NCBI RefSeq assembly: GCF_001748365.1
Contig: NZ_BDHH01000007.1
Coordinates: 1 to 64,000, forward strand
DNA length: 64,000 nt
Direction of reading: 5' to 3'
Source: Fusibacter sp. 3D3
Lineage (GTDB): Bacteria; Bacillota; Clostridia; Peptostreptococcales; Acidaminobacteraceae
The number at the start of each line of letters is the position of its first letter. The stretch's first letter is position 1. Position numbers and translations under genes: made by a program. The notes beneath the pieces were generated by a model, which searched no databases, was not told the origin of the DNA, and worked only from the letters and a program-made list of their open reading frames with translations. This document shows positions 8,902 through 59,790 of the stretch, piece after piece.

Positions 8902-8921
8902 AGAGAAGAAAATTGAATAGT

Positions 8922-9080
8922 TTAATCAAGGTGCTTACTCTTTTAGCTAAGAGGGAAAGAGGTTGAAATCCTCTGCAGCCCCCGCTACTGTATATAGTGA
9001 TGAAATCCAAGAATCCACTGAGAAATTGGGAAGGATGGAAAGTAAAGTGATCTATGAGCCAGGAAACCTGCCTTGATTTA
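8922..9080 (+). ncRNA. Cobalamin (adenosylcobalamin) riboswitch
   Basis: The conserved elements are in order: GGTGC near 8930, GAGGGAA near 8956, AATCCTCTGCAGCCCCCGCTACTGT near 8973-8997, and the B12 box AGCCAGGAAACCTGCC at 9057-9072. Closing stem P1 is AATCAAGG (8924-8931) with CCTTGATT (9071-9078). It is followed by a terminator hairpin at 9133-9163, so ligand binding probably stops transcription before cbiP. Confidence 0.95.
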
Positions 9081-9132
9081 GGATGAATCTACTTCGGAGG
9101 GAAGTCGGGTGATTTGAATTGATTGTATATTC

Positions 9133-25983: not shown

Positions 25984-27162
25984 TTATCCTTTAGTAAATA
26001 CATTGCCTTTGTACTTCACTTGATTTCTCCCAGCTTCTTTAGCCGCATATAAGCCTTGATCTGCGATTTCTATAAGTGCAGAAAAATTCTTGCCATCGTA
26101 AGGATAAGTGGAAATGCCCATAGATATCGTGAATTTTGGTGCGGACTTATTTTGAATTTCTATACGCATTCTTTCTGAAATTTCAAGTGCACCAGGCGCA
26201 TTGATATGAGGCATTACAAAGACGAATTCATCACCGCCGTAGCGTCCTAAAAAATCCGTTTTCCGATTGTTGATCATAAACGCATAGGAGAGGTATTTAA
26301 GACACTCATCACCGACCATATGCCCTTTTGTGTCGTTTATTGTTTTGAATTTATCAATATCAAACATGGCAATGGAGAAAATTTTAACGGAACTGTCGTT
26401 AATTAAATCATTGATAACAGAGGTAAGTCCGTTTCGATTTAAGGCTTTTGTCATGGGATCTTTCTGAGAACTTTCTTTGATATGTTCAACTTTATCTGCC
26501 ATGACAGAAGTGCGTTTTTTTGCTTCGAATTCAACAGTTCTTTCAAACTTCCGCTCAAGATCAGCGAGTCTAACATCAATAGAAGCGCGCGACATTTTGT
26601 AAAATTTGAGCAATATGGAGATTTCGGAAAGCTGAAACACGGCATAAATTAAGAGACCAAAACTCATTAAAAAATAAGTGTGTCCATAGCTTAAAATGAT
26701 GACGCCAATAAGTGCGATCAGATAAATTTCAGATATTTCTTTGTGCATAGCTGTTTTATAATGATTGTAATTCCGAAATTGAATGAGTATGATGATTCCC
26801 ATCAGCAATATATTAGAAATATTCAAAAATTGGATGGGAATCATGAGGTTGAATCCAACCATTAGGAGCAAGACAATGCTTAAAATATATGCCAATAAGT
26901 GAAGAACACTATTTTCAATGACGCGTGTGAAAATCATAGATAGCGCTTGAACTGAAAAATATATAAATAAGGCAAGTTTATAAACGTAAAAATCACTGAG
27001 CAGTAGAGCAGAATTGGATATACCAATGATCGCAATAAACGGAATGACATCAAAATATTTTGATTTGACAAGTTTATCACTACTTCTATAAACAAAGACG
27101 TTGAAAAAATAAGAAAGTAAGAAAAGTGAAGCACTTACGTGTAAAATGTTAATTCTCTCCAT
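25984..27162 (-). CDS. Membrane-bound diguanylate cyclase (GGDEF)
   Basis: A 392-residue enzyme that makes c-di-GMP from two GTP. It begins with about six membrane helices (residues 1-185), then a short helical linker and a GGDEF domain from about residue 235. The active motif GGDEF is intact, the substrate-binding DKFKTINDTKG is present, and RKTD lies five residues before GGDEF, giving an inhibitory I-site. Membrane part has no sequence I recognise as a ligand domain. Transcribed on its own with AGGAGGC before the ATG at 27162. Confidence 0.88.
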   Translation of the reverse strand: MERINILHVSASLFLLSYFFNVFVYRSSDKLVKSKYFDVIPFIAIIGISNSALLLSDFYVYKLALFIYFSVQALSMIFTRVIENSVLHLLAYILSIVLLLMVGFNLMIPIQFLNISNILLMGIIILIQFRNYNHYKTAMHKEISEIYLIALIGVIILSYGHTYFLMSFGLLIYAVFQLSEISILLKFYKMSRASIDVRLADLERKFERTVEFEAKKRTSVMADKVEHIKESSQKDPMTKALNRNGLTSVINDLINDSSVKIFSIAMFDIDKFKTINDTKGHMVGDECLKYLSYAFMINNRKTDFLGRYGGDEFVFVMPHINAPGALEISERMRIEIQNKSAPKFTISMGISTYPYDGKNFSALIEIADQGLYAAKEAGRNQVKYKGNVFTKG

Positions 27163-29005: not shown

Positions 29006-30976
29006 ATGAAATGTAATAATAAATGTCTTGTAAATATGATACTGATTATATTATTGATTATAGCAAGTGTAATTCAACTTAATAGTGCTTACGTACAAGA
29101 AATGTCTGAAATTAATTTAAGAAGCGTTTATATCAGTCGAAATTTAGATGAACTCTTGGTTTCATCTATACAACAACTTGAGTTGTTGGGCAGTCAAATA
29201 ACGGGGATTATGTCTGATCATCAGTATGCATATAAAGAAAATTTATACAAGGAGGGAGAGAACTATGAAGTACTTGGAAAATCAGTCTCCTTAATTGGAA
29301 TTGCAGAAAACAAAGAACTCAAACAAGAAGTAAAAGATGAAATTGCTAATATTCTTACCTTTGAAGCTTCATTTGTTAAAATTAAACAGAATTTAGCCAA
29401 TATTGAATGGCTTTATTATTTGTCTCAAAATAATTTTATTACGATTTATCCGAAGACAACTCACAAAGCGAATACAATAATTCCAGTGACTTATGATTTT
29501 GAATTTTTTCAGATCGTCTCACCTCAAATGGATCCTAATAAACACGTTAAATTCACGAAAGTCTATGAAGATCAATTAGGCAAAGGGTCTATGATCACTA
29601 TCTCAATGCCAATTTACAAAAAAGATCAGTTTATAGGTGCTTTATCAATTGACTATACACTGGAAGGGTTGTCAGATCTTTTAAAGTTTGAATCCAATGA
29701 AATGATGAACTATGTGTTGATCAATGAATATGACCAAGTAATTGCAACGAGCAACAACATCGTTGAAGGCAAATATCAAGAAACAGATGCTTATTTAAAT
29801 TCCAAATATGGTATCGACTTAAAAGAAGTTGAAAGAAGAAAACATGAGCTTTTTACCAATGGAGATTATTACATTATGATTATTCCGCTGGCAGATGTGC
29901 CTTTTGAGGTGTATGTCATCGTTAATAGAATGACGTTTTATATTACTGTATTGAGTAAAATACTGCCGATTATCATTTCTTTATTGGGTATAATCATCAT
30001 ATTAAGCCTCTATTTTAAAACGATTAATATCAACGACTCTTTGGAAAAAAGTGAAAGAAAATTCAAATATGTATTTGATCAATCCGCTGCCTATGCCGTT
30101 ATTTTAGATTCAAGTGGGAATATTGTCTATGCAAACCAGCAAGCTCTAAATATGATTGGTAGAAATATTGAAGATATAAGAGGTCAATATTTTTCTAATG
30201 CAATGTGGTGGGCATATTCTTTAGACTTGAATTTGTTTATTGACGAAGCGATTAAGGAAGTCATAAACGGCTTTTCCATAAAAAAAGATGTGATTTTAAG
30301 AGATATACACAAAAAAGAGCATGTGTACACGTTGTCGATGTTTGGCATCAGAGATGATTTTGGAAATCTTGATTATATTGCAACAACAGGCAATGAAATT
30401 ACTGATCGAATAGAGATGGAAAGCAAGCTAGAAGGTTTATCTAAGACGGATTTACTAACCCAGACTTTTAACAGAAGAGGGATGTATGAAATCTTGGATC
30501 AAAGTGTGAATCTCTATAAGAGAAAACAAACGCCTTTCGTCATTTTGATTTGTGATATCGATTTCTTTAAAAATGTGAATGATATGTACGGTCATATGGT
30601 TGGCGATGAAATCTTGTCAGGGCTTGTATTACTGTTAAAAAAATCGGCTAGACCTTATGATGTGGTTGGAAGGTGGGGTGGTGAAGAATTCACCATATTG
30701 CTACAAGATACGACTGAAGAAGAAGGTGTCATCGTGGCGGAACGTATAAGGCGAGCGGTCTCTCAACATCCTTTTAAAAGTGATTTGACGGATCACGTGA
30801 TTTACATCAGTTTGACAATTGGACTCAAGTCATATGAACCGGATTTCGACATTAGACAAATATTAAAGATGGCAGATGATGCTTTATATCATGGGAAGAA
30901 AAACGGCAGAAATCAAGTCGTCAATTATGTAAGCATGATAGGTAAGACAGATGCTGTTGATAAAGATGAACTTTGA
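29006..30976 (+). CDS. Membrane sensor diguanylate cyclase (Cache-PAS-GGDEF)
   Basis: A 656-residue sensor. An N-terminal membrane helix (about residues 9-28) and a second at about 316-337 flank an extracellular region of about 285 residues that has a dCache-like layout. A PAS domain (about 350-470, with YAVILDSSGNIVYANQQALN) follows and then a GGDEF domain (about 480-645) with the active GGEEF motif and RPYD five residues before it (I-site). It would thus make c-di-GMP in response to an outside signal, the nature of which cannot be read. The start at 29006 is favoured by GGGGGGAAGCT. Confidence 0.87.
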   Translation: MKCNNKCLVNMILIILLIIASVIQLNSAYVQEMSEINLRSVYISRNLDELLVSSIQQLELLGSQITGIMSDHQYAYKENLYKEGENYEVLGKSVSLIGIAENKELKQEVKDEIANILTFEASFVKIKQNLANIEWLYYLSQNNFITIYPKTTHKANTIIPVTYDFEFFQIVSPQMDPNKHVKFTKVYEDQLGKGSMITISMPIYKKDQFIGALSIDYTLEGLSDLLKFESNEMMNYVLINEYDQVIATSNNIVEGKYQETDAYLNSKYGIDLKEVERRKHELFTNGDYYIMIIPLADVPFEVYVIVNRMTFYITVLSKILPIIISLLGIIIILSLYFKTININDSLEKSERKFKYVFDQSAAYAVILDSSGNIVYANQQALNMIGRNIEDIRGQYFSNAMWWAYSLDLNLFIDEAIKEVINGFSIKKDVILRDIHKKEHVYTLSMFGIRDDFGNLDYIATTGNEITDRIEMESKLEGLSKTDLLTQTFNRRGMYEILDQSVNLYKRKQTPFVILICDIDFFKNVNDMYGHMVGDEILSGLVLLLKKSARPYDVVGRWGGEEFTILLQDTTEEEGVIVAERIRRAVSQHPFKSDLTDHVIYISLTIGLKSYEPDFDIRQILKMADDALYHGKKNGRNQVVNYVSMIGKTDAVDKDEL

Positions 30977-43993: not shown

Positions 43994-44581
43994 ATGAACT
44001 ATACTATAGAAGACCTCAAAGAAGCTGTCGTAAGGCTTGAAGATGCTTTGGTGACTCATGAAACAGAAGATGTCGATATGTGTGTCAGATTGATAAAAAA
44101 TATTTCAAGTCAAATAAAGACGGATTATTGGTCCGATCATGTTAAAGAAGATGAAATCGTGATTCAGCCGGTGGCACATCATAATCATGATTATAAAATC
44201 ATAAATACGATAGAGTTTTTATATAAACCGATGCACTTTGTCGATGTTTATGAAGGTAATGAGATTGAATATTTTGCAAAGGAACGGTCAGAAGAATTGC
44301 TTGAATCTGGTGCGATGGAAAAGCATAATGACTTTTGGTCTACGCATGAGATTATATATGGGAACGTCTACGGTTCCTTGCCACTAGAACTTTTACCTCC
44401 TGATAATATCTCTAAACTTTTGAGATGTGGTTGGAAAAAAGCAAATGTGGATATCGTTGAATTTTTAGAAACGGTTGCAGAGGAGCGTATTCGGGAGATC
44501 GCATCGTACAAATATAGACATTATATTATCATTAAAGAACTTGAAACGGGTTCGTATTTATTATTGAGGTATAATTTCTAA
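43994..44581 (+). CDS. Hypothetical protein
   Basis: A 195-residue soluble, acidic protein that I do not recognise. It has no signal peptide, membrane helix or known motif; the sequence VAHHNHDYKI and WSTHEIIYGNVYGSLPLELLPPDN are its most distinctive. It is encoded between threonine aldolase and an RluA-type synthase with short gaps, so it is probably co-transcribed with them. No function is assigned. Confidence 0.55.
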   Translation: MNYTIEDLKEAVVRLEDALVTHETEDVDMCVRLIKNISSQIKTDYWSDHVKEDEIVIQPVAHHNHDYKIINTIEFLYKPMHFVDVYEGNEIEYFAKERSEELLESGAMEKHNDFWSTHEIIYGNVYGSLPLELLPPDNISKLLRCGWKKANVDIVEFLETVAEERIREIASYKYRHYIIIKELETGSYLLLRYNF

Positions 44582-45535: not shown

Positions 45536-45712
45536 AGTGTTCTGGGGTGTTGGTCACCTTATAAATTCAACCACTGTTTAATCGTAGGGAGAACGTGTTC
45601 TACTGCGTATGACGCGCTACAATTTTGGTAGAAGTCAGAAACAGAAGATAGTCCACCCACCTAGTTGGGGTGTGGTGTGAGATTTATCGGGTGACGGCAT
45701 TCTGGGCAGTAT
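45536..45712 (+). ncRNA. ssrS: 6S RNA
   Basis: A long, nearly unbranched RNA of about 175 nt. The terminal helix CTGGGGTGTT (45542-45551) pairs with GGCATTCTGG (45696-45705), with G-T pairs, and TCACC with GGTGA continues it. This closes exactly as in Escherichia coli 6S RNA (CTGAGATGTT ... GGCATCTCGG). A further stem ATAAAT...ACCAC / GTGGT...ATTTAT leads to a central bubble region. It has its own SigA promoter and no ORF. 6S RNA mimics an open promoter and binds RNA polymerase. The 3' end is approximate. Confidence 0.75.
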
Positions 45713-45795: not shown

Positions 45796-46377
45796 CTATG
45801 CTTTTTTAGCTTGAGGTGCATTGTTTCGGTTTTCGTTGTGAGCAGTGTTATTTCCGTTGGTATTAGAGGCATTGCTTGTGCTGTTATTCGTAATGTTATT
45901 CGTAATATTATCGTTGTTTGATTTATCATTTCTATTTTTATTGGATTGTGTTTTTTTGAAATCGATGAGATTGTTGTTGATTTTATCGATGTTTCTTTCA
46001 GAAATCATGGCATCAACTTCGATGACTATTTCTTCTTCGGGATCTACGAAGCAATTGCCTTTATAAGTGGCGCCTTCTTCTGTGTTAAAACTTTTGCAGA
46101 TGATATCGCCATTGAGAGAGGCTTTGTGATAAAGATTGATCTTACCTTTTGTTTTTGTATTGCCTTCAACGATGCCATAAATATCTGCATTTATACAGGT
46201 TATATTGCCGTTAATATAGGCTTCTTCAGTAACTATGATGTTGCCAAGCGACTTGATATCACCAAGTACTTTACCATCGACACGGATGCTACCTTCACTT
46301 TCAATATCCCCTTTAATAATAGAACTTGGACCAATTATAATGTCAAATTTAAATTCGACTTCTTTCTTTGGAAACAT
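45796..46377 (-). CDS. Bactofilin (polymer-forming cytoskeletal protein)
   Basis: A 193-residue bactofilin. The right-handed beta-helix (about residues 10-120) is made of repeats such as SIIKGDIESEGSIRVDGKVLGDI and AYINGNITC. Such proteins assemble without nucleotide into filaments on the inner membrane and direct wall enzymes. The C terminus (about residues 150-193) is a low-complexity Asn-rich tail, unusual but common at bactofilin ends. The M23 peptidase gene directly precedes it on the same strand, so cell-shape work is likely. Confidence 0.88.
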   Translation of the reverse strand: MFPKKEVEFKFDIIIGPSSIIKGDIESEGSIRVDGKVLGDIKSLGNIIVTEEAYINGNITCINADIYGIVEGNTKTKGKINLYHKASLNGDIICKSFNTEEGATYKGNCFVDPEEEIVIEVDAMISERNIDKINNNLIDFKKTQSNKNRNDKSNNDNITNNITNNSTSNASNTNGNNTAHNENRNNAPQAKKA

Positions 46378-46387
46378 GACAGACCTC

Positions 46388-47389
46388 CTATTTTTCTTTT
46401 AATATATTGAGTGGATTGATTTGAGTGTCATTAAACCTCACTTCAAAGTGTAGATGCGTGCCAGTACTTTTACCAGATGACCCCATAGTTCCAATGAGTT
46501 GACCTTTTGTAACGGTGCTGCCTTTGCTGGCTTTGAGTTCATTTAAATGTGCATACACGGTTTTATAGCCATAACCATGATTGATAATGATTACATTGCC
46601 AAAGCTACCGTTCCATCCCGCAAATATAACGATCCCATCACCGGCTGTATAGACATTTGTGCCAGTGGCATTTGCGAGGTCGATGCCTTTGTGACTAGCT
46701 GTTTTTCCAGTTACAGGATCTCTCCGAAAACCAAATGGAGAAGTTAATTTACCCTGAGTAGGATATAGATCAGGCCGACATTCCAAGTAAGTTATTTGGG
46801 ATTGTAAAGTGGTGATCAGCTCTGAATATTCATTGCCTTGTTCTAAAATGAGTTTTGAAATTTCATCATTGGCAATAAGATCTGCCAGTTGACTGAGTAG
46901 AGCATCCTCTTCAGGGATTAACCCATCAGTGGATGTGTTAATGAAGCGGTCAAAGGAGCGACTTATCGGAACAGAAATGTTTGAACTTGTCTCCTGATTG
47001 AACATGGATACAAGTTGAGAGACGTTTTGGTTGACGGCATCCATTTCAATTAATCTTGAATTAACATAGGTCAAGGTATCCTCAAGAGATGTTTTCAGCA
47101 CTGTGATTTCTTCCAATCTCAGATTATTTATACTTTCTAAAGACTGGAGTTGATCTTCTTTTATAATCATATTTTTATTTAAGGTAGAATTTTGTGTGGT
47201 TAAAATGATAGAATGTAGTCGAGTCGTGACGGTAGTGGTGAGTAAAGCAAGATTGGCGAGGATTAGTAGAATTAATATTGAGAATGCGATCGCTAAGTTA
47301 AAATGCCATTGCTTAATACTCTTTTGGGACTTAGGAATGACCATGATGGTTACTTTATTTTGTCTAAAGTAATTTTTGAGTTTATTCAT
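46388..47389 (-). CDS. Membrane-anchored M23 (LytM) peptidase
   Basis: A 333-residue wall endopeptidase. A single membrane helix (about residues 28-52) is followed by a coiled-coil-rich region (about 60-200) and a LytM domain (about 225-330). The metal-binding residues are visible: SHKGIDLA (His, Asp) and THLHFEVRF (HxH). It is probably active and cleaves peptidoglycan cross-links. The start at 47389 has TGGAGGATAT ahead; the extension to 47422 has none. Adjacent to the bactofilin gene by ten bases; co-transcription is likely. Confidence 0.9.
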   Translation of the reverse strand: MNKLKNYFRQNKVTIMVIPKSQKSIKQWHFNLAIAFSILILLILANLALLTTTVTTRLHSIILTTQNSTLNKNMIIKEDQLQSLESINNLRLEEITVLKTSLEDTLTYVNSRLIEMDAVNQNVSQLVSMFNQETSSNISVPISRSFDRFINTSTDGLIPEEDALLSQLADLIANDEISKLILEQGNEYSELITTLQSQITYLECRPDLYPTQGKLTSPFGFRRDPVTGKTASHKGIDLANATGTNVYTAGDGIVIFAGWNGSFGNVIIINHGYGYKTVYAHLNELKASKGSTVTKGQLIGTMGSSGKSTGTHLHFEVRFNDTQINPLNILKEK

Positions 47390-47628
47390 ATATCCTCCAT
47401 TGAATAGCAAATTATATATCATTTTATCACAATTTTTTATAAAAGTTCAATGAATCCATAAAAATTAGTTTACCTAAGTTCTATTATTCTGTAAAATAGA
47501 ATATATGCAAGAATGTGTTAAAATCTGGTTGGTGACTTTATTGATATAACATAGATATCACAAAAATCAGTTTTTAAACAACTTTTATGTTTAACGATAA
47601 TGAGATAAAAAATGGAGGCCTATTGGGA

Positions 47629-48054
47629 ATGGATGAAAGAACTGTTAGAATCGAAGAAAATTTAAGAAGAGTATGCTATAAAATCAAAAAGAAGGGAAGA
47701 GAGATATTAAATGATGTTGATATCACCCCACCTCAGTTTGAAGCTTTGCAATACTTGATTTATGAACAGAATCTAACAATAGGTGAGTTGAGTTCAAGAA
47801 TGTATCTCGCGTGCAGTACTGTGACTGATTTATTAGATCGCATGGAGAGAAACGAACTTGTTAAACGTGTAAAAGACGAAAATGACCGTAGAATTGTAAG
47901 AATAGAGGTCCTTCAAAAAGGTCATGACTTACTTCAAAGTGTTATGGAAACAAGACGAAAATATGTGGCGGAAATTATGACTGAGTTAAGTGAAGATACA
48001 ATCAATGGTATAGATGATAGCTTTAGAATTTTTAATGAAAAAGTTGAGTTGTAA
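47629..48054 (+). CDS. MarR-family transcriptional regulator
   Basis: A 142-residue winged-helix regulator of the MarR type. The DNA-binding region is LTIGELSSRMYLACSTVTDLLDRMERNELVKRV, with the wing KDENDRRIVRIEVL following. The open frame reaches 47587, but GGAGG at 47614-47618 favours a start at TTG 47623 or ATG 47629. It ends 64 bases before the giant GGDEF protein, so it may control it. The ligand is not known. Confidence 0.88.
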   Translation: MDERTVRIEENLRRVCYKIKKKGREILNDVDITPPQFEALQYLIYEQNLTIGELSSRMYLACSTVTDLLDRMERNELVKRVKDENDRRIVRIEVLQKGHDLLQSVMETRRKYVAEIMTELSEDTINGIDDSFRIFNEKVEL

Positions 48055-48118
48055 AGTACGCGATGCTTTACTGCTTTTATCAGTGGGTGACGGCATTATA
48101 TAATGGGGGCGTAATTAT

Positions 48119-51100
48119 TTGAAAGTTATAAACAACCGATATCACGTCTTGGAAACGTTATCAAGAGAAAGCAGTGTTGTTGAATATTTGGTTGAAGATA
48201 CGAAAAAAAATCATCAAATTAAACGCATTCGGATATTTGATACAGAAATATCAAATTATGAGTTTATGAAATCTATGGAGGAAAATTTTGTAGATATATC
48301 CACATATATACACGATCAAATTTTAACGGCTTATGAATTTAAACCCATCTATACGATAAATGGAAGTAAGGTAACGCGTAAGCAGTTTTTTTACACTTAC
48401 GAGCATTACGATGAAAATTTAACGGTACCTTATTTTGAACTCAATAAATCAGAAATTAATAGTGTGATCGTGCAGCTGTGTAAAGCGATAAGATTTTTAC
48501 ATTTCAGAGGTATAATTTATAAATATCTCAATTTCAATGCGATAGTACTTTTAAGAGAGAACGGACAAATAAAACTTAAACTCAAAGATATAGCCAATAA
48601 TTATATTAATGACTATTTCTTTAAGTTAGATCATGAAAGATATCAACAATTTATTGCACCGGAGATCTTATGGGGTGAAGAAGTTGACAATCATGCTGAT
48701 ATCTATTCATTAGGCGTTATGTTCTATTATTTGTATTATAGAGTGGATTTTACGTTGAAATCACTTCAGAGTTTGTCTAAAAATGTGAACAACACAGATA
48801 TTCATAAGTTTATTTTAAAGGCATCAAATCATATTAAAGATGAAAGACATGATCATATACAAGCGTTTATTGATGAATTGACTAAATTGATTTGGATTGA
48901 AGTTGAAAAAGATGATATTAAATTCTATGATCGGATTCATGAGAAAACGATAATTGTGGGTAGAGATGCCATCATAACCGAATGTAAAGAAATCATATTT
49001 GATAAAATGAAGAAAATCGTAGGTTTAAATGGCATCTATATTCAAGGGGAAAATGGCATTGGCAAATCACGTGTGCTCAAGGAACTTGAATATACGGCCA
49101 AATTCAATCGAATTGCCTATGTGACGATTGATGCAATGAAATCTGAAGAGGACTCTTTTTATGCAATCAAAGAGATTATTTCCTTTATTGCGACTCAAGA
49201 TGATGTTTCACCGTTGCTCATACAAAAATATGGGCAAGAGCTTGCGAAAATATTGCCAGAACTGACTTCTAAATGGAATTTAAAAGAAATGAAACCGTTT
49301 AATTTAGAAGCTCAAAAGATGAGACTTCTTAACAGAGCTTTCAATTTCTTTGTAGAATACAGCAACAATAAATATATGATTTTATTGGTCGATGATGAAG
49401 AATATATTCATCCTGATGAAAGGTATTTTTTTGACCAATTGGTTCATCATAAAGGCCATGCGAATTTTATGCTGATCTTCACAGGTGTGGATCAAGATAG
49501 ACCTTATCAGATGTTTCCTGATACCATTCGGCCTGTAAAATTACCGTTTTTAAATTTAGAAGAAACGGGTAAAATTGTTCAGAAATCTCTTGGCATCAGC
49601 AAGATTCCTTATCGGTTTACACATCGAATTATGATAGAGTCTATGGGGAAACCAAACAGTACGAAAAGACTTGTCAAGAAATTGTGGCTTGAAAAAGTGA
49701 TCTTTTTTGATCAAGAACATTTACAGTGGAATTTGGATCAAGTCGACGATGGTTATAAATTTGAATATGCAGAAGAAAATGATTTGGAAATAATAAAAAT
49801 GATTGAGGATATTGTTCCTAAGCATATTGAAATTTTAAAAAAAATAGCTGTTTTAAAAGGCGCATTTAATCTAAATGTACTTCTGAGCTATGCGGAGATA
49901 GACGAGGAGCAAGCTTACTATTTTATTTTCGAGATGGAGTCTAAAAAGATTCTTAACAAACGTATAAGTGATGTTGAGTATGTTTTTGGATTTTATAAAA
50001 ATGAGGTTAAAAAATATTTTGTGGATCTATTATCAGTAGAAGAAGTGAAGTCTCTATCACAAAAGGCAGCCTCTATATATGAGCATCGGTTTAAAGTTTA
50101 TGATGAGATCAATGAAACTTTGATTGATTATTTGATCGCATCGGAGAATTTCGTCGAGGCAGCTCAGTATTCAGCTCTTTTTTCAAAGTATTATATTGAA
50201 AAATCTAATAGCCATAAAGGGATTGATTTGCTTGAGCAGGCCAGTCAAATATACGATCATTTATATGATGTGAGCAATATTATAAAAACATCTAAAAAGC
50301 TGATCAAGAATTATATTAGTATTGGGAAATTAGATAAAGCGTACGAAAAAATCTTATTTTTAATTGAGTTGACTGAAGCGGATTATCCAGAGGATCATAT
50401 TGATGCCCAACTTGAACTGGCAGATATCTATTACTACAAGTACGATATTAATAAAGCAACGGATCAGATAGCGTTTTACTTCGATCAATCCCAGCAACTT
50501 GACTATCTAGAAGGTGAATTTAAATCGGCTCAACTCTTATGTCGATGTTTTGCAGAAAAAGGGGATTTAGATAAAGTTTTTAAACTTATTGATTCTTATT
50601 TAGCGAAAGCGAAAGCCATAAATCATCGTTATTATACGGCTGTGTTTTTAAGTGAACTTGGACGTTACAATCATTTCATGAATCGATTTGATGAAAGTCT
50701 TGAAGCTTTCAATAATGCACTTGATATCTTTAATGAAATTGAAGATGAAGAGCACATCATTAAGATTTATAATAACTTTGGTGTAATCTACTTAGATGAA
50801 TTGGGAGATTACATTGTTGCAAGAGAATATTTTAGAAAGGCATACAATAAAGCCAATGCACGAAATCACTATGTTTCAACACCAATACATCTCAATAATC
50901 TAGGGGAGACCTATAAAATTGAAGGCAAGTTTCAAACGGCCATAAAGTATTTTGAAGAGTCATATCTTTTAGCTGAAAATGTGGGCGATAAGAATATGGT
51001 TATTTTATCATTGCTCAATTTGTGCTATGTTTCACTTCTGATAGAGCATTATGGTAAAACGCATACTTTGATTAATAGACTTGAGCATGAAATTAGTGCG

Positions 51101-53470
51101 ATAAAAAATAGAGAATTTGATAAATTTGATTATTTCATGCTTCACTTTGAATACTTTATTACGATGAATAGTGTGATGAAAGTCGAAAAATGGCGTTATG
51201 ATTTTGATGCAGATGAGATTAAGGATGACTATAGACGTTTTAGGATAAAAGTCATTGATCTCATTATAAAATATCGAAAAAGTGCCCTTATTATTTCGAG
51301 CAAGCAAGTGCCCTTTGACGATATTAAGGCATTGAGCTCGACTGTAAAAAACCCAACTGAAGCAATGCTCGTTAGAAATTTTCTTTTAGATATTATGATT
51401 GATTTTATTGATTATGCTGATTTTATTGAAGTTAAAAAATTGATTAAATTGGATGATCAACTTGTTGCGCTTTATAATACAAAGCATGTTCGGTTGAAAA
51501 GAGCTTTTATAGATGCGTGTCGAGGAGCAGGTAGCTTTCAATGTGTAGACGAAATGATTCCTCTGATCAAAGAAGAATCGCAAGAATTACTTTGGAGAGC
51601 CTACAAGTTTTTAGGAGATGATGCGTATCATGCGAATCATCAGTATAATGCCCTTAAATTTTATTTAATGTCATTAGATATCATCGCAGATTTATCCATA
51701 GAGATTGCTCAAGAATATAAAGAAACCTATATTTTATATGATGATTCTAAAATGACCCTTAAAAATAGAATCAATAAAATCATCAAAAATTTTCTAAACT
51801 TTGAGAATACGTCTGGTCATCAGATCTATTTTGAAGAACGCATAGATACAGTTGATGATTACTTTGATCTAAATCATTTTAATTTGCTTTATCAAAATAA
51901 AAGTTTTGTGAAATCGGTCTATGAGCATTATAAATTTAGTGCCGTCGCTTCTTTTCAAACGCCCACGGATCTCATTAAAAGCCTTGGCAAAGATGACCGA
52001 GAAAATCTTCAGATGATTTTAAGGTACCTCATTCATATGACAATTGCCGAACGCGGCATGATTTACATGTTGGATGTTAACGATAATATAGATGAAATCA
52101 TAAAAACATCAGATGATGTTTTAGGGTATGATATCCTCAAGTTAATCAATAGTATTGGAAATGATTTAGAGGGTGTCTATATATCAAAATTAGATGCGGA
52201 TACGAACGTTCAGATTCTTTCAGATGAACAGAAAGGCATTATCTTTTTTCCGATCTATGAATCTGTAAATGAGAGTGCGAAACTTGAAAAGCGTCGAGAA
52301 GATCTGCTCATTGTAAGGAAAAGAGTCGTTGGATATGTTTTTCTGGATACCAATAATGTGATCAATCGCTTTAACCCACAATCTTTTAATCAAAGCAAAT
52401 CCTTTATGAATTTAATCTATCTCATGATGGACAATTACAATTTAAAATTAATTTCATCCGTTGATAAACTCACAGGCGTTCAACTCAGAAAAGCAATTGA
52501 GCTTGCTTTTACAAGAGAACTCAATCTTTCGAGGCAAAACAACACGTGCCTATCGGTTATTATGCTTGATATTGATAAATTTAAAAACGTCAATGACACT
52601 TATGGGCACCGTAAAGGAGATGAAATTCTTTCGAAGATTGGAGAGTTGTTAAATGCTTCTATTCGAAATACGGATTATGTTGGACGTTATGGCGGTGAGG
52701 AGTTCGTAATCATCTTACCGGAGACCAATGTGGTTGATGGCTTAAAAGTGGCTGAAAAGATTCGATCTAAAGTGGCACATCAGAAACTTTTAGGGGAGGA
52801 AATGCCACTCACAGTGAGCCTTGGTGTATCCACCTATCCAGATGATGGCGTCAACGAAGAAGAACTCGTGGAGAAAGCCGATCAGGCGCTATATTACTCT
52901 AAAAATAATGGCCGTAATCAATCCAATAGTTGGCATGAGAAACTTGTTAAAGCAGGCCACAGATACGATAAACTGGCTGGAATTCTAACGGGTAATATTT
53001 CTGCGGATACGCGAAATGTGCAAGCCTTAACGGATATACTGGCCCAATTGGAAAATTCAAAAAGTGCTGAAGATCGCATTAAAGACACTTTTATCACACT
53101 TCTTGATATTACAGAAGCAGAAGAAATTTGTTTTATAAAATATGACGAAAATTGGACCATTAAAGAAGTGATCAGTAAAAAGAAAGGTCATGATATACTG
53201 ACCTCAGATATCTATATTAATCAAAGGCTTCTTGATCAATTTCAGAACACAACAGAAAGTCAGTATTTTATTGATTGGGAAGAAAGTGTATCTTACGATA
53301 AGATGACCCATATTCCTAATTGGAAGTCGTACATTGTAATGAGCTATAATGAACTTGGGAAAAAAGGAATCCTTTCAATTTCTGTACCGATTCATGAAAA
53401 GGAACTTGATTTTAGTAATTATAACTTTGTAGAAACTTTAAAGTTAGTCATAAGTTATATATTATTTTAA
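48119..53470 (+). CDS. Giant pseudokinase-ATPase-TPR-GAF-GGDEF signalling protein
   Basis: A 1783-residue multidomain protein. Residues 1-260 have a protein-kinase fold, but the catalytic loop reads IIYKYLNFNAIVLL in place of HRDLKPEN and the DFG site reads KDIA (Asp157), so it is probably a pseudokinase. Residues 270-560 form an AAA/STAND-type ATPase: Walker A GENGIGKS (310-317) and Walker B MILLVDDEEY (420-429). Residues about 640-1010 hold TPR-like repeats. A GAF-like domain lies about 1250-1440, then GGDEF (about 1445-1610) with the active GGEEF at 1525 and RNTD giving an I-site. A second GAF-like domain ends the protein. No membrane helix. Start TTG at 48119. Confidence 0.85.
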   Translation: MKVINNRYHVLETLSRESSVVEYLVEDTKKNHQIKRIRIFDTEISNYEFMKSMEENFVDISTYIHDQILTAYEFKPIYTINGSKVTRKQFFYTYEHYDENLTVPYFELNKSEINSVIVQLCKAIRFLHFRGIIYKYLNFNAIVLLRENGQIKLKLKDIANNYINDYFFKLDHERYQQFIAPEILWGEEVDNHADIYSLGVMFYYLYYRVDFTLKSLQSLSKNVNNTDIHKFILKASNHIKDERHDHIQAFIDELTKLIWIEVEKDDIKFYDRIHEKTIIVGRDAIITECKEIIFDKMKKIVGLNGIYIQGENGIGKSRVLKELEYTAKFNRIAYVTIDAMKSEEDSFYAIKEIISFIATQDDVSPLLIQKYGQELAKILPELTSKWNLKEMKPFNLEAQKMRLLNRAFNFFVEYSNNKYMILLVDDEEYIHPDERYFFDQLVHHKGHANFMLIFTGVDQDRPYQMFPDTIRPVKLPFLNLEETGKIVQKSLGISKIPYRFTHRIMIESMGKPNSTKRLVKKLWLEKVIFFDQEHLQWNLDQVDDGYKFEYAEENDLEIIKMIEDIVPKHIEILKKIAVLKGAFNLNVLLSYAEIDEEQAYYFIFEMESKKILNKRISDVEYVFGFYKNEVKKYFVDLLSVEEVKSLSQKAASIYEHRFKVYDEINETLIDYLIASENFVEAAQYSALFSKYYIEKSNSHKGIDLLEQASQIYDHLYDVSNIIKTSKKLIKNYISIGKLDKAYEKILFLIELTEADYPEDHIDAQLELADIYYYKYDINKATDQIAFYFDQSQQLDYLEGEFKSAQLLCRCFAEKGDLDKVFKLIDSYLAKAKAINHRYYTAVFLSELGRYNHFMNRFDESLEAFNNALDIFNEIEDEEHIIKIYNNFGVIYLDELGDYIVAREYFRKAYNKANARNHYVSTPIHLNNLGETYKIEGKFQTAIKYFEESYLLAENVGDKNMVILSLLNLCYVSLLIEHYGKTHTLINRLEHEISAIKNREFDKFDYFMLHFEYFITMNSVMKVEKWRYDFDADEIKDDYRRFRIKVIDLIIKYRKSALIISSKQVPFDDIKALSSTVKNPTEAMLVRNFLLDIMIDFIDYADFIEVKKLIKLDDQLVALYNTKHVRLKRAFIDACRGAGSFQCVDEMIPLIKEESQELLWRAYKFLGDDAYHANHQYNALKFYLMSLDIIADLSIEIAQEYKETYILYDDSKMTLKNRINKIIKNFLNFENTSGHQIYFEERIDTVDDYFDLNHFNLLYQNKSFVKSVYEHYKFSAVASFQTPTDLIKSLGKDDRENLQMILRYLIHMTIAERGMIYMLDVNDNIDEIIKTSDDVLGYDILKLINSIGNDLEGVYISKLDADTNVQILSDEQKGIIFFPIYESVNESAKLEKRREDLLIVRKRVVGYVFLDTNNVINRFNPQSFNQSKSFMNLIYLMMDNYNLKLISSVDKLTGVQLRKAIELAFTRELNLSRQNNTCLSVIMLDIDKFKNVNDTYGHRKGDEILSKIGELLNASIRNTDYVGRYGGEEFVIILPETNVVDGLKVAEKIRSKVAHQKLLGEEMPLTVSLGVSTYPDDGVNEEELVEKADQALYYSKNNGRNQSNSWHEKLVKAGHRYDKLAGILTGNISADTRNVQALTDILAQLENSKSAEDRIKDTFITLLDITEAEEICFIKYDENWTIKEVISKKKGHDILTSDIYINQRLLDQFQNTTESQYFIDWEESVSYDKMTHIPNWKSYIVMSYNELGKKGILSISVPIHEKELDFSNYNFVETLKLVISYILF

Positions 53471-57418: not shown

Positions 57419-57868
57419 ATGGCGGAGAAACAATACATTGTATTTAAGCTAAACGACGAAAAGTTCGCAGCCAATATCAACCACATCGCATCTATAACAG
57501 ATTATGCTTCAATTACATCATTGCCAAATGGACCCGCATATGTGGATGGGCTTTTAAATCTGAGAGGCGATATCATACCCGTTGTCAACCTTAAGAAACG
57601 ATTTAAAATGACGGATACAGTTGCAAGGGATAAACGCATCCTAATTGCTAGACGTGACGATATTCTCATTGGATTTTTAGTGGACGATGCCTCTCAGTCT
57701 ATGTCTGTAGATGAAAAAGACGTGCTACCGCCTCCTAAAATTGCAATTAAAAAGGAGAATGCTTATATCTCAGAAGTGTGCATTCATAATAATGAATTGA
57801 TAATCGTCATCGACCTAGATAAAGTCTTATCAGAAGATGAAATTAGTGAAATATTGGAAATCAATTAG
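57419..57868 (+). CDS. cheW: CheW-like chemotaxis coupling protein
   Basis: A 149-residue CheW. The core KQYIVFKLNDEKFAANINHI at the N terminus and the conserved LNLRGDIIPVVNLKKRF block (about residues 47-63) are typical. It bridges methyl-accepting receptors and CheA in the usual system. No cheA or receptor gene is in the window, so its partners lie elsewhere. GGAGGTGTTTAA ribosome binding site. Confidence 0.9.
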   Translation: MAEKQYIVFKLNDEKFAANINHIASITDYASITSLPNGPAYVDGLLNLRGDIIPVVNLKKRFKMTDTVARDKRILIARRDDILIGFLVDDASQSMSVDEKDVLPPPKIAIKKENAYISEVCIHNNELIIVIDLDKVLSEDEISEILEIN

Positions 57869-57939: not shown

Positions 57940-57980
57940 GATATAATAATCATTAGTCAAAACGTAGTGGAGTGTGTATT

Positions 57981-59114
57981 TTGAAGAATTTCATCGAGAT
58001 AAAAGAATTGGATCAGATTATTAATAAAACAGCCGTCTCCATAGAAGACGGGAAGAAGGAGATTTTTGAGATCTCTGAGAAATCAAGACAAGATTACAAT
58101 CACTATGAACAGGAACTTTTAAATATAAAAACGAAATTGACTTTAATTGTTAATGAGATTGACAAACTCGAAATTCGAGCTAAAATGGCCAAAAATATGA
58201 TTGCTACGATTAACGCACATTTTGATGAATTTACAGAAAAGGACATCAAAGATGCCTATGAACTCTCTCAAAAAGTTCAAATTGAACTCTCTGTAAAGCG
58301 GCAAGAGGAAAGAGAGCTCCAAGATCGTAAAACAGAACTGGAAAGGCTTCTGATTGCCTCTAAAGATGTTATGAAGCGTTCTGAAGCACTTGAGACTAAA
58401 GTGAGTGTAGCTTTAGATTATTTGACCAATAGTATCTTTGAACAGTTAGAGGACCATAAACATAAAAAAGAAGTGAGCATAAAAATTATAGAAGCTCAAG
58501 AAAATGAAAAAAAGCGCATCTCTAGAGATATTCATGATGGGCCGGCCCAATCACTTGCCAATATCATTTTTAAAGCAGAGTATTTATCTAAGATTATTGA
58601 TGTGGCACCTCATAAGGCTAAAAAAGAAATTTCAGAATTACAAGAAGATATTAGAGATACTCTGAAAGATATTCGGAAAATTATATATGATTTAATGCCT
58701 ATGTCGCTCGATGATTTGGGTCTTATTCCAACACTCAATAAATTGATTTCAAATTTGATGGAAAGCCATCCCTTACAAATTGAAATGAAAATTAAAAATC
58801 TAGCACCCATTAACGATCCCCTGATCAACCTTACGGTTTTCAGAGTGGTGCAGGAGAGTTTTAACAACATCGTCAAGCATTCCAAATGTAAAAATGCATT
58901 ATTATTGATAGATTGTACTGAGAAAAAAATTGAGGTGGAAATTATTGACGATGGTATTGGGTTTGATGCTAATGGGATGCTTAAGAAACCTAGCGGTTAT
59001 GGCCTATACAATATGAGAGAAAGGATTGAGATGCTCAGTGGTATTTTTTCATTAAAGTCTCAAAATGGCAATGGCACCAAAATAAAAATTGTAATACCTA
59101 ATAAAATATCTTGA
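57981..59114 (+). CDS. degS: Sensor histidine kinase DegS
   Basis: A 377-residue soluble histidine kinase. Residues 10-160 form a coiled-coil sensor that matches Bacillus DegS (EKSRQDYNHYEQEL, RQEERELQDRKTELERL). The HisKA_3 phosphorylation site is RISRDIHDGPAQSLAN (about residues 178-193) and HATPase follows with ATP-binding boxes such as VQESFNNIVKHSK (N box) and IDDGIGFD. No membrane segment, so cytoplasmic. The TTG at 57981 with GTGGAG ahead is favoured over GTG at 57972. Its partner degU follows by 25 bases. Confidence 0.9.
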   Translation: MKNFIEIKELDQIINKTAVSIEDGKKEIFEISEKSRQDYNHYEQELLNIKTKLTLIVNEIDKLEIRAKMAKNMIATINAHFDEFTEKDIKDAYELSQKVQIELSVKRQEERELQDRKTELERLLIASKDVMKRSEALETKVSVALDYLTNSIFEQLEDHKHKKEVSIKIIEAQENEKKRISRDIHDGPAQSLANIIFKAEYLSKIIDVAPHKAKKEISELQEDIRDTLKDIRKIIYDLMPMSLDDLGLIPTLNKLISNLMESHPLQIEMKIKNLAPINDPLINLTVFRVVQESFNNIVKHSKCKNALLLIDCTEKKIEVEIIDDGIGFDANGMLKKPSGYGLYNMRERIEMLSGIFSLKSQNGNGTKIKIVIPNKIS

Positions 59115-59139
59115 TGAGAGATGAATTTGGAGGAACTAT

Positions 59140-59790
59140 ATGAAGCCAATAAAAGTTGCAATTGTCGATGACCACGCACTAATTCGTGAAGGTATTAAAA
59201 AATTGCTTGAACTTGAGGAGAGCTTGGAAATTGTATTTTTAGCAGGTGATGGAGAAGAAGCTATAGCAATGCTTGATAAGCATATGCCAGATGTTATACT
59301 TCTTGATATCAATATGCCCAATTTGAACGGCATCGATACACTGCGTATTTTAAAAGATCAATTTAGTGAAATTAAGGTTATTATGCTCACGATTCATGAA
59401 GATGCGCAATACTTAATTGAGACCATCAATATTGGCGCAGAAGGTTATGTACTTAAAGATGCGGATGTGTCGTCACTCGTTAAAGCGATTCATAAAGTCA
59501 CATTGGGTGAACTTTACATCCACCCAACACTTTCTGGTATTTTAGTAAAAGAATACAAGAAGAAGGATAAATCCATCGATGAAATGATTGGAACGAATTT
59601 GACAAAGCGTGAATATGAAGTCATTAGATTGATTTCTCAGGGGTACAATAACAAGGAAATTGCAACGGAACTGTTTATCAGCGAAAAAACTGTAAAAAAT
59701 CACGTTTCCAATATTTTTAAAAAAATTAAAGTAACGGATCGTACTCAAGCGGCGCTTTATGCAATTAAGCACAATATTACAAAAATTTAA
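59140..59790 (+). CDS. degU: Response regulator DegU
   Basis: A 216-residue NarL-type response regulator. Receiver domain about residues 5-120, phosphorylation Asp56 in VILLDINMP, and acid pair DDH at 10-12. The LuxR-type helix-turn-helix is at about 150-212: LTKREYEVIRLISQGYNNKEIATELFISEKTVKNHVSNIFKKI is present in shorter pieces. It controls degradative enzymes, motility or competence in Bacillus; here its targets are not known. RBS GGAGG. Confidence 0.92.
   Translation: MKPIKVAIVDDHALIREGIKKLLELEESLEIVFLAGDGEEAIAMLDKHMPDVILLDINMPNLNGIDTLRILKDQFSEIKVIMLTIHEDAQYLIETINIGAEGYVLKDADVSSLVKAIHKVTLGELYIHPTLSGILVKEYKKKDKSIDEMIGTNLTKREYEVIRLISQGYNNKEIATELFISEKTVKNHVSNIFKKIKVTDRTQAALYAIKHNITKI

Follow-up and report, generated by a model that had tools for sequence, protein, structure and literature searches.

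The question raised by this locus is what becomes of a kinase-like domain when it is joined, in one long protein, to an ATPase and a diguanylate cyclase. The window (the whole 64,000-nucleotide stretch analysed, from Fusibacter sp. 3D3) carries the gene on its forward strand, and the features of the locus are collected in Table 1. Position and size were as given in the preliminary description: the frame at 48119-53470 (+) is uninterrupted for 1783 codons from a TTG start, and the orthologous proteins have the same first residue as the Fusibacter protein. The orthologues are full length, with 19-80% identity across the part upstream of GGDEF, and the closest named relative of the locus is in Fusibacter ferrireducens Q10-2 (L059, genome G002), of the same genus. 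A chance or artefactual ORF was ruled out, since full-length orthologues occur in three Fusibacter species and also outside the genus. A mobile, plasmid, or phage gene was ruled out by conserved synteny, the lack of a match in the plasmid search, and the shortness of the viral matches (two viral contigs, each matching within the C-terminal part and covering 78 residues only). No membrane helix was found in the 1783-aa protein (highest 19-residue Kyte-Doolittle mean, 1.59), which is predicted to be cytosolic and soluble. In the genome of the window, about 47 further GGDEF matches were found besides this gene; the part upstream of GGDEF was found there just once. Two more GGDEF genes lie in the window itself, at 26017-26391 (-) and 30428-30928 (+); a cobalamin riboswitch was seen at 8912-9089, and no c-di-GMP riboswitch was found within the window.

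The domain order is pseudokinase, STAND ATPase with winged helix, TPRs, GAF, GGDEF, and a second GAF-like domain. Profile searches matched Pkinase (residues 105-254, E 3e-10, above the cut-off), AAA_16 (residues 280-452, E 7e-4 alone, below the Pfam cut-off), TPRs (around residues 840-954), and GGDEF (residues 1447-1601, E 1e-44), in keeping with the domains first proposed. An AlphaFold2 model of residues 1-700 (15 sequences, mean pLDDT 80.5) showed a two-lobed kinase fold followed by an alpha/beta nucleotide-binding domain and then by a winged-helix-like segment that runs on into helical repeats; a model of residues 1228-1783 (GAF-like, GGDEF, GAF-like) reached a pLDDT of 76 and a pTM of 0.46, so that the domain packing in it is tentative at best. 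The structure-search lists were occupied by kinase and GGDEF folds alone, and the STAND and GAF assignments therefore rest on profiles, model topology, and one low-confidence overlap.

Table 1. Features of the 1783-aa gene and its conserved neighbours, with positions in the window and residues in the protein.
Feature	Residues	Position	Strand	Basis
Whole gene, 1783 aa	1-1783	48119..53470	+	ORF list/sequence
Shine-Dalgarno-like GGGGGC, 8 nt before TTG		48105..48110	+	Sequence; G-rich sites alike in several orthologues
Pseudokinase domain	1-262	48119..48904	+	Pfam Pkinase; kinase fold Z ~20; motifs
Catalytic-loop remnant YKYLNFNA, in place of HRDLKxxN	134-141	48518..48541	+	Alignments
DFG remnant DIA, Asp kept (D157)	157-159	48587..48595	+	Alignments
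STAND/AAA_16 nucleotide-binding domain	276-475	48944..49543	+	AAA_16 in 22/22 relatives; model
Walker A GENGIGKS	310-317	49046..49069	+	Lys in 50/51 members
Walker B ILLVDDE	421-427	49379..49399	+	Asp425 in 42/51 members
GxP helical (G510-K-P512) and winged-helix-like segments	476-645	49544..50053	+	Motif conservation; model
TPR superhelix	646-1228	50054..51802	+	TPR_12 E 1e-16, TPR_MalT
GAF-like domain 1	1285-1440	51971..52438	+	Model; GAF/GAF_2 matches; 4zmu overlap
Linking helix into DKLTGV	1426-1448	52394..52462	+	Model; alignment
GGDEF diguanylate cyclase domain	1447-1601	52457..52921	+	Pfam/NCBIfam; Z ~26 to WspR/PleD
I-site RNTD, RxxD-x5-GGEEF product-inhibition motif	1516-1519	52664..52675	+	Arg 49/51, Asp 50/51
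Active-site GGEEF	1525-1529	52691..52705	+	GGEE 51/51
Linker with signature KLAGILTGNIS-DTRNVQA and second GAF-like domain	1612-1783	52952..53467	+	Alignments; model
MarR-family regulator, 64 bp gap to gene		47587..48054	+	Pfam MarR; near 27/51 loci
Bactofilin, conserved neighbour		45796..46377	-	Pfam; neighbourhood comparison
M23 peptidase, divergent, conserved neighbour		46388..47422	-	Pfam; neighbourhood comparison
CheW, same conserved island		57419..57868	+	Pfam; neighbourhood comparison
DegS/DegU-type two-component pair, same conserved island		57972..59790	+	Pfam; neighbourhood comparison

Relatives were sought with the part upstream of GGDEF alone (alignment A1, ending at residue 1434). 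The same ~1800-aa protein, at full or near full length, turned up in 49 of the 247 genomes that represented the order and in about 30 of 391 sampled across the class, with a few relatives in other classes of the phylum. Protein lengths in the family are near constant (about 1740-1850 aa). The output is GGDEF in 51/51 members, which separates them, as had been proposed, from kinase/ATPase/GAF histidine kinases, and since the members were found without GGDEF in the query, this constancy is no selection effect. On the STAND-TPR tree, a branch with SH-aLRT 100 separates the 51 members from 10 homologues of other arrangement; the tree is unrooted, with 16 inner branches unresolved and the placement of some long branches unsure. 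The 1783-aa protein is a member of a conserved Clostridia-wide family and no one-off fusion.

Residues 1-261 are predicted to adopt a protein kinase fold (top match at Z 20.8, with 3.4 A over 246 residues), with WNK kinases among the best structural matches; together with the Pkinase match, this bears out the alignment of the N-terminal region with kinases on which the preliminary description hinged. The HRD catalytic Asp is replaced by Tyr136, and it is present in 2 of 50 family members, making the pseudokinase state that was read from the YKYLNFNA loop a family-wide one. The reading of DFG as KDIA stood for the Phe and Gly, which are lost, and not for the Asp, which is retained (D157; across the family, Asp 33/51, Phe 4, Gly 0); loss of this Asp had been suggested by a first alignment to PrkC and was rejected on a larger one. 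The Gly-rich loop is likewise lost (SRESSV in the Fusibacter protein, and absent almost everywhere in the family), and the beta3 Lys column holds Arg38 (family Lys 12/51, Arg 19). Judged by its motifs, the domain is no active Hanks-type kinase, with neither the HRD Asp nor the Gly-rich loop nor the beta3 Lys in place. The structural residues are retained, namely the helix-F Asp (Asp194) in 49/51 members and the APE Glu in 45/51, and the family as a whole appears to have given up kinase catalysis but held on to the kinase fold, to the P-loop, and to the cyclase motifs.

For some members, with the DFG Asp or the beta3 Lys, ATP binding is conceivable, and perhaps even phosphorylation through an unusual mechanism. 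If the N-terminal domain were a working kinase by atypical chemistry (SelO- or WNK-like), the protein would be a dual kinase/cyclase; this would accord with the DFG Asp in 33/51 members, a beta3-column Lys in 12/51, and the place among the best structural matches of WNK, also with a displaced Lys. However, WNK itself retains HRD and DFG, the Gly-rich loop and HRD Asp are missing almost everywhere in the family, and the replacement residues vary by lineage, as expected for relaxed catalysis and not for a new fixed active site, so that we consider an atypical kinase improbable. Between close species, dN is 0.054 for the pseudokinase, 0.050 for GGDEF, 0.12 for STAND, and 0.13 for TPR (dN alone was used, dN/dS being mostly undefined with synonymous sites saturated). 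A pseudokinase dN as low as that of GGDEF argues that the domain is kept for something besides catalysis, and it is probably a working regulatory domain. It would be very surprising if it were a decaying, functionless remnant of an HstK/CP1-type kinase, as the lineage-varying loss of catalytic motifs could be read, given a kinase-like domain in every full-length family member, the dN comparison with GGDEF, and the retention of Asp194 and the APE Glu. Outside the family, the HRD Asp is also lost in three HstK-like clostridial kinase-ATPase-histidine kinase proteins (L080, L081, L125), and kinase loss therefore goes beyond the cyclase family. By sequence comparison, the pairing of a dead kinase with a cyclase is strong within the family and no universal rule.

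In the ATPase part, AAA_16 matches 22/22 relatives (best 1e-12) and nSTAND6 matches 4/22. The Walker A Lys is missing in one of 51 family members, the Gly of GxP is found in 51/51 and the Pro in 41/51, and the winged-helix-like segment is seen in the model by its helix/strand pattern. TPR_12 matches 22/22 relatives and TPR_MalT 17/22. The region would accordingly be classed as a STAND NTPase by Walker A and B, GxP, winged helix, and C-terminal repeats; both the Walker A/B ATPase and the TPR-like repeats first proposed were recovered, with the further STAND motifs in place.

The catalytic metal residues Asp1484 and Asp1486 are each present in 51/51 members, as is GGEE, and with the active-site, metal, and I-site motifs intact, the diguanylate cyclase is apparently active, as first described; GGEEF (from residue 1525) and the I-site RNTD had both been placed correctly. 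The proposed GAF domain corresponds to a GAF-like domain N-terminal to GGDEF, and another one on the C-terminal side had been overlooked. GAF/GAF_2 models match the C-terminal parts of up to 6/24 relatives, where the match may be to either GAF-like domain, and the overlap with the GAF-GGDEF structure 4zmu extends over 280 residues at an rmsd of 16 A (low confidence). The post-GGDEF signature alone (alignment A3) retrieved 16 relatives from genome contigs.

In the order-level island, divergent M23 and bactofilin genes precede MarR, and YgiQ, HutH, CheW, and DegS/DegU follow the gene at varying distance. In 24 of 35 order-level loci, MarR is 0-100 bp upstream and reads in the same direction, and it is probably co-transcribed with the 1783-aa gene; beyond the order, the linkage to MarR and HutH persists in family f57 (L118-L120). 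Such conserved linkage speaks for vertical descent of the gene and for the MarR protein as its regulator, and the neighbourhood (MarR, CheW, DegS/DegU, bactofilin) hints at a part in motility, life on surfaces, or the cell envelope. Beside the conserved island, a 6S RNA gene was seen at 45536-45712 between RluD and the bactofilin/M23 pair, and a 195-aa ORF at 43994-44581 with no Pfam match is conserved in relatives, where it sits between the genes for threonine aldolase and RluD. The conserved CheW, bactofilin, and M23 neighbours would also suit a TPR/STAND scaffold that places a constitutive cyclase, for example at chemotaxis or cell-wall machinery, and leaves sensing to the GAF domains; GAF-like domains flank GGDEF on both sides, and GAF-GGDEF and WspR/PleD-type cyclases, which are among the structure matches, are self-sufficient. 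However, the P-loop, GxP, and TPR are conserved as widely as the cyclase, more than a simple scaffold would call for, and we regard this role as unlikely.

The protein is probably an allosteric, soluble diguanylate cyclase gated by its pseudokinase and STAND modules, and the earlier proposal that a ligand of the STAND module turns on c-di-GMP synthesis fits this anatomy. GGDEF domains work as dimers. In the resting state, a closed nucleotide-bound STAND module and the pseudokinase would hold the TPR-GAF-GGDEF arm, with two GGDEF half-sites kept apart. The TPR/pseudokinase half would recognise the trigger, either a protein or a small molecule; together with this ligand, the loading of ATP onto the STAND module would then open the protein and let it oligomerise, and the GAF domain and linking helix would bring the GGDEF domains together for conversion of GTP to c-di-GMP, with the RxxD I-site as a feedback brake. 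The pseudokinase would no longer phosphorylate and would serve as a docking or nucleotide-sensing regulatory lid. Domain order, kept and lost motifs, conservation, the single family branch, and the MarR-linked island are observed; enzymatic activity, the state of the nucleotide, oligomer formation, the ligand, and any influence on motility or adhesion are the inferred parts of the scheme.

To our knowledge, bacterial pseudokinases are largely unstudied. PknK of M. tuberculosis is an active kinase without a cyclase, and the output of MalT is DNA binding. Locus L108, which we take to be that of C. thermocellum ATCC 27405, encodes 1826 aa from its Met, falls within the family branch, and has lost the kinase motifs too. 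The 1826-aa C. thermocellum protein listed as 'Kinase + 6 TPR repeats + GGDEF' (gi 23020879) and classed as a kinase in a 2005 survey (PMC1262709) is almost certainly a family member. The survey's entry for it makes no mention of the ATPase, the GAF, or the lost catalytic residues and carries no family follow-up. The claim of a novel architecture is therefore reduced by this listing of kinase, TPR, and GGDEF, and stands as regards function: in the open literature (subscription papers being outside the scope), no functional work and no account of the family or its pseudokinase state was found besides the survey entry.

HstK/CP1-type proteins combine a Ser/Thr kinase, a COG3899 ATPase, and GAF/PAS, with or without a histidine kinase; CP1 is mainly cyanobacterial and proteobacterial and comprises about 40% pseudokinases (PMC12599244, PMC2176072). 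A 2025 review of bacterial pseudokinases describes CP1 with the COG3899 ATPase and GAF or PAS, and the words GGDEF, cyclase, and TPR are absent from it. The clostridial family resembles this type in its cytosolic kinase-like domain, predicted ATPase, GAF, and C-terminal output, with AAA_16 and TPR after the kinase-like domain and no membrane segment (AAA_16 stands in for the COG3899 model), but its output is always GGDEF and never a histidine kinase. Five of the 10 other homologues on the STAND-TPR tree are HstK-like clostridial proteins (L080-L082, L125, L126), from which the family is split off as a separate branch. At L126:4700-9900 (G459), an HstK-like kinase-ATPase-GAF-GGDEF gene was seen whose kinase motifs look intact (HKDVNPSN, DFG), but whose frame is broken by a stop codon that falls after the catalytic loop and ahead of DFG. 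The remaining five (L122-L124, L135, L136) are clostridial proteins of ~1700-1770 aa that share the order of the first four modules (kinase, AAA, TPR, GAF), but they keep HRD and DFG intact and have a DegS-type histidine-kinase output. PknK is alike in joining a kinase to a MalT-like STAND module, according to its listing in the 2005 survey (PMC1262709). In MalT, the inducer recruits the arm and the ADP-bound NOD opens, with nucleotide exchange and multimerisation to follow, a STAND switch logic like that proposed here (PMC4381067). Eukaryotic membrane guanylyl cyclases work in a similar way, with a nucleotide cyclase of the class III/GGDEF fold under the control of a pseudokinase (PMC4718504); they are transmembrane and have the pseudokinase adjoining the cyclase, whereas the Fusibacter protein would be soluble, with STAND, TPR, and GAF between. 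The parallel is an analogy and implies no architectural homology.

In one lineage of the class (family f31), tandem copies were observed. Genome G395 carries two tandem paralogues 137 bp apart on the minus strand (L114:4250-15200; C12 about 254200-265200). Between about residues 1100 and 1700 their DNA is 100% identical, and it is close to identical over the rest of this C-terminal half, which comprises the late TPR-GAF-GGDEF-GAF; their pseudokinase-STAND halves have about 20-43% identity per 100 residues. In G351, G576, G476, and G511, also of f31, two N-terminal halves each were found, 54-58% and 37-41% identical to copy A. Nearly all of these halves lie on contigs terminating near the same point, as expected if the identical repeat broke the assemblies. 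The pattern, seen in one contig and inferred elsewhere, suggests that in f31 the sensor half has diversified and the cyclase half has been homogenised.

STAND proteins drive transcription, defence, and death. It is quite possible, and we put it forward tentatively, that this family is a class-wide counterpart of the receptor guanylyl cyclases, in which a pseudokinase and a STAND module gate the cyclase and an NLR- or MalT-like assembly, set off by a ligand, leads directly to c-di-GMP, with one lineage carrying tandem-diversified sensors on an identical cyclase half. If true, this would be a new input route to c-di-GMP, from a STAND/pseudokinase decision, and a soluble parallel to the pseudokinase-regulated guanylyl cyclases.
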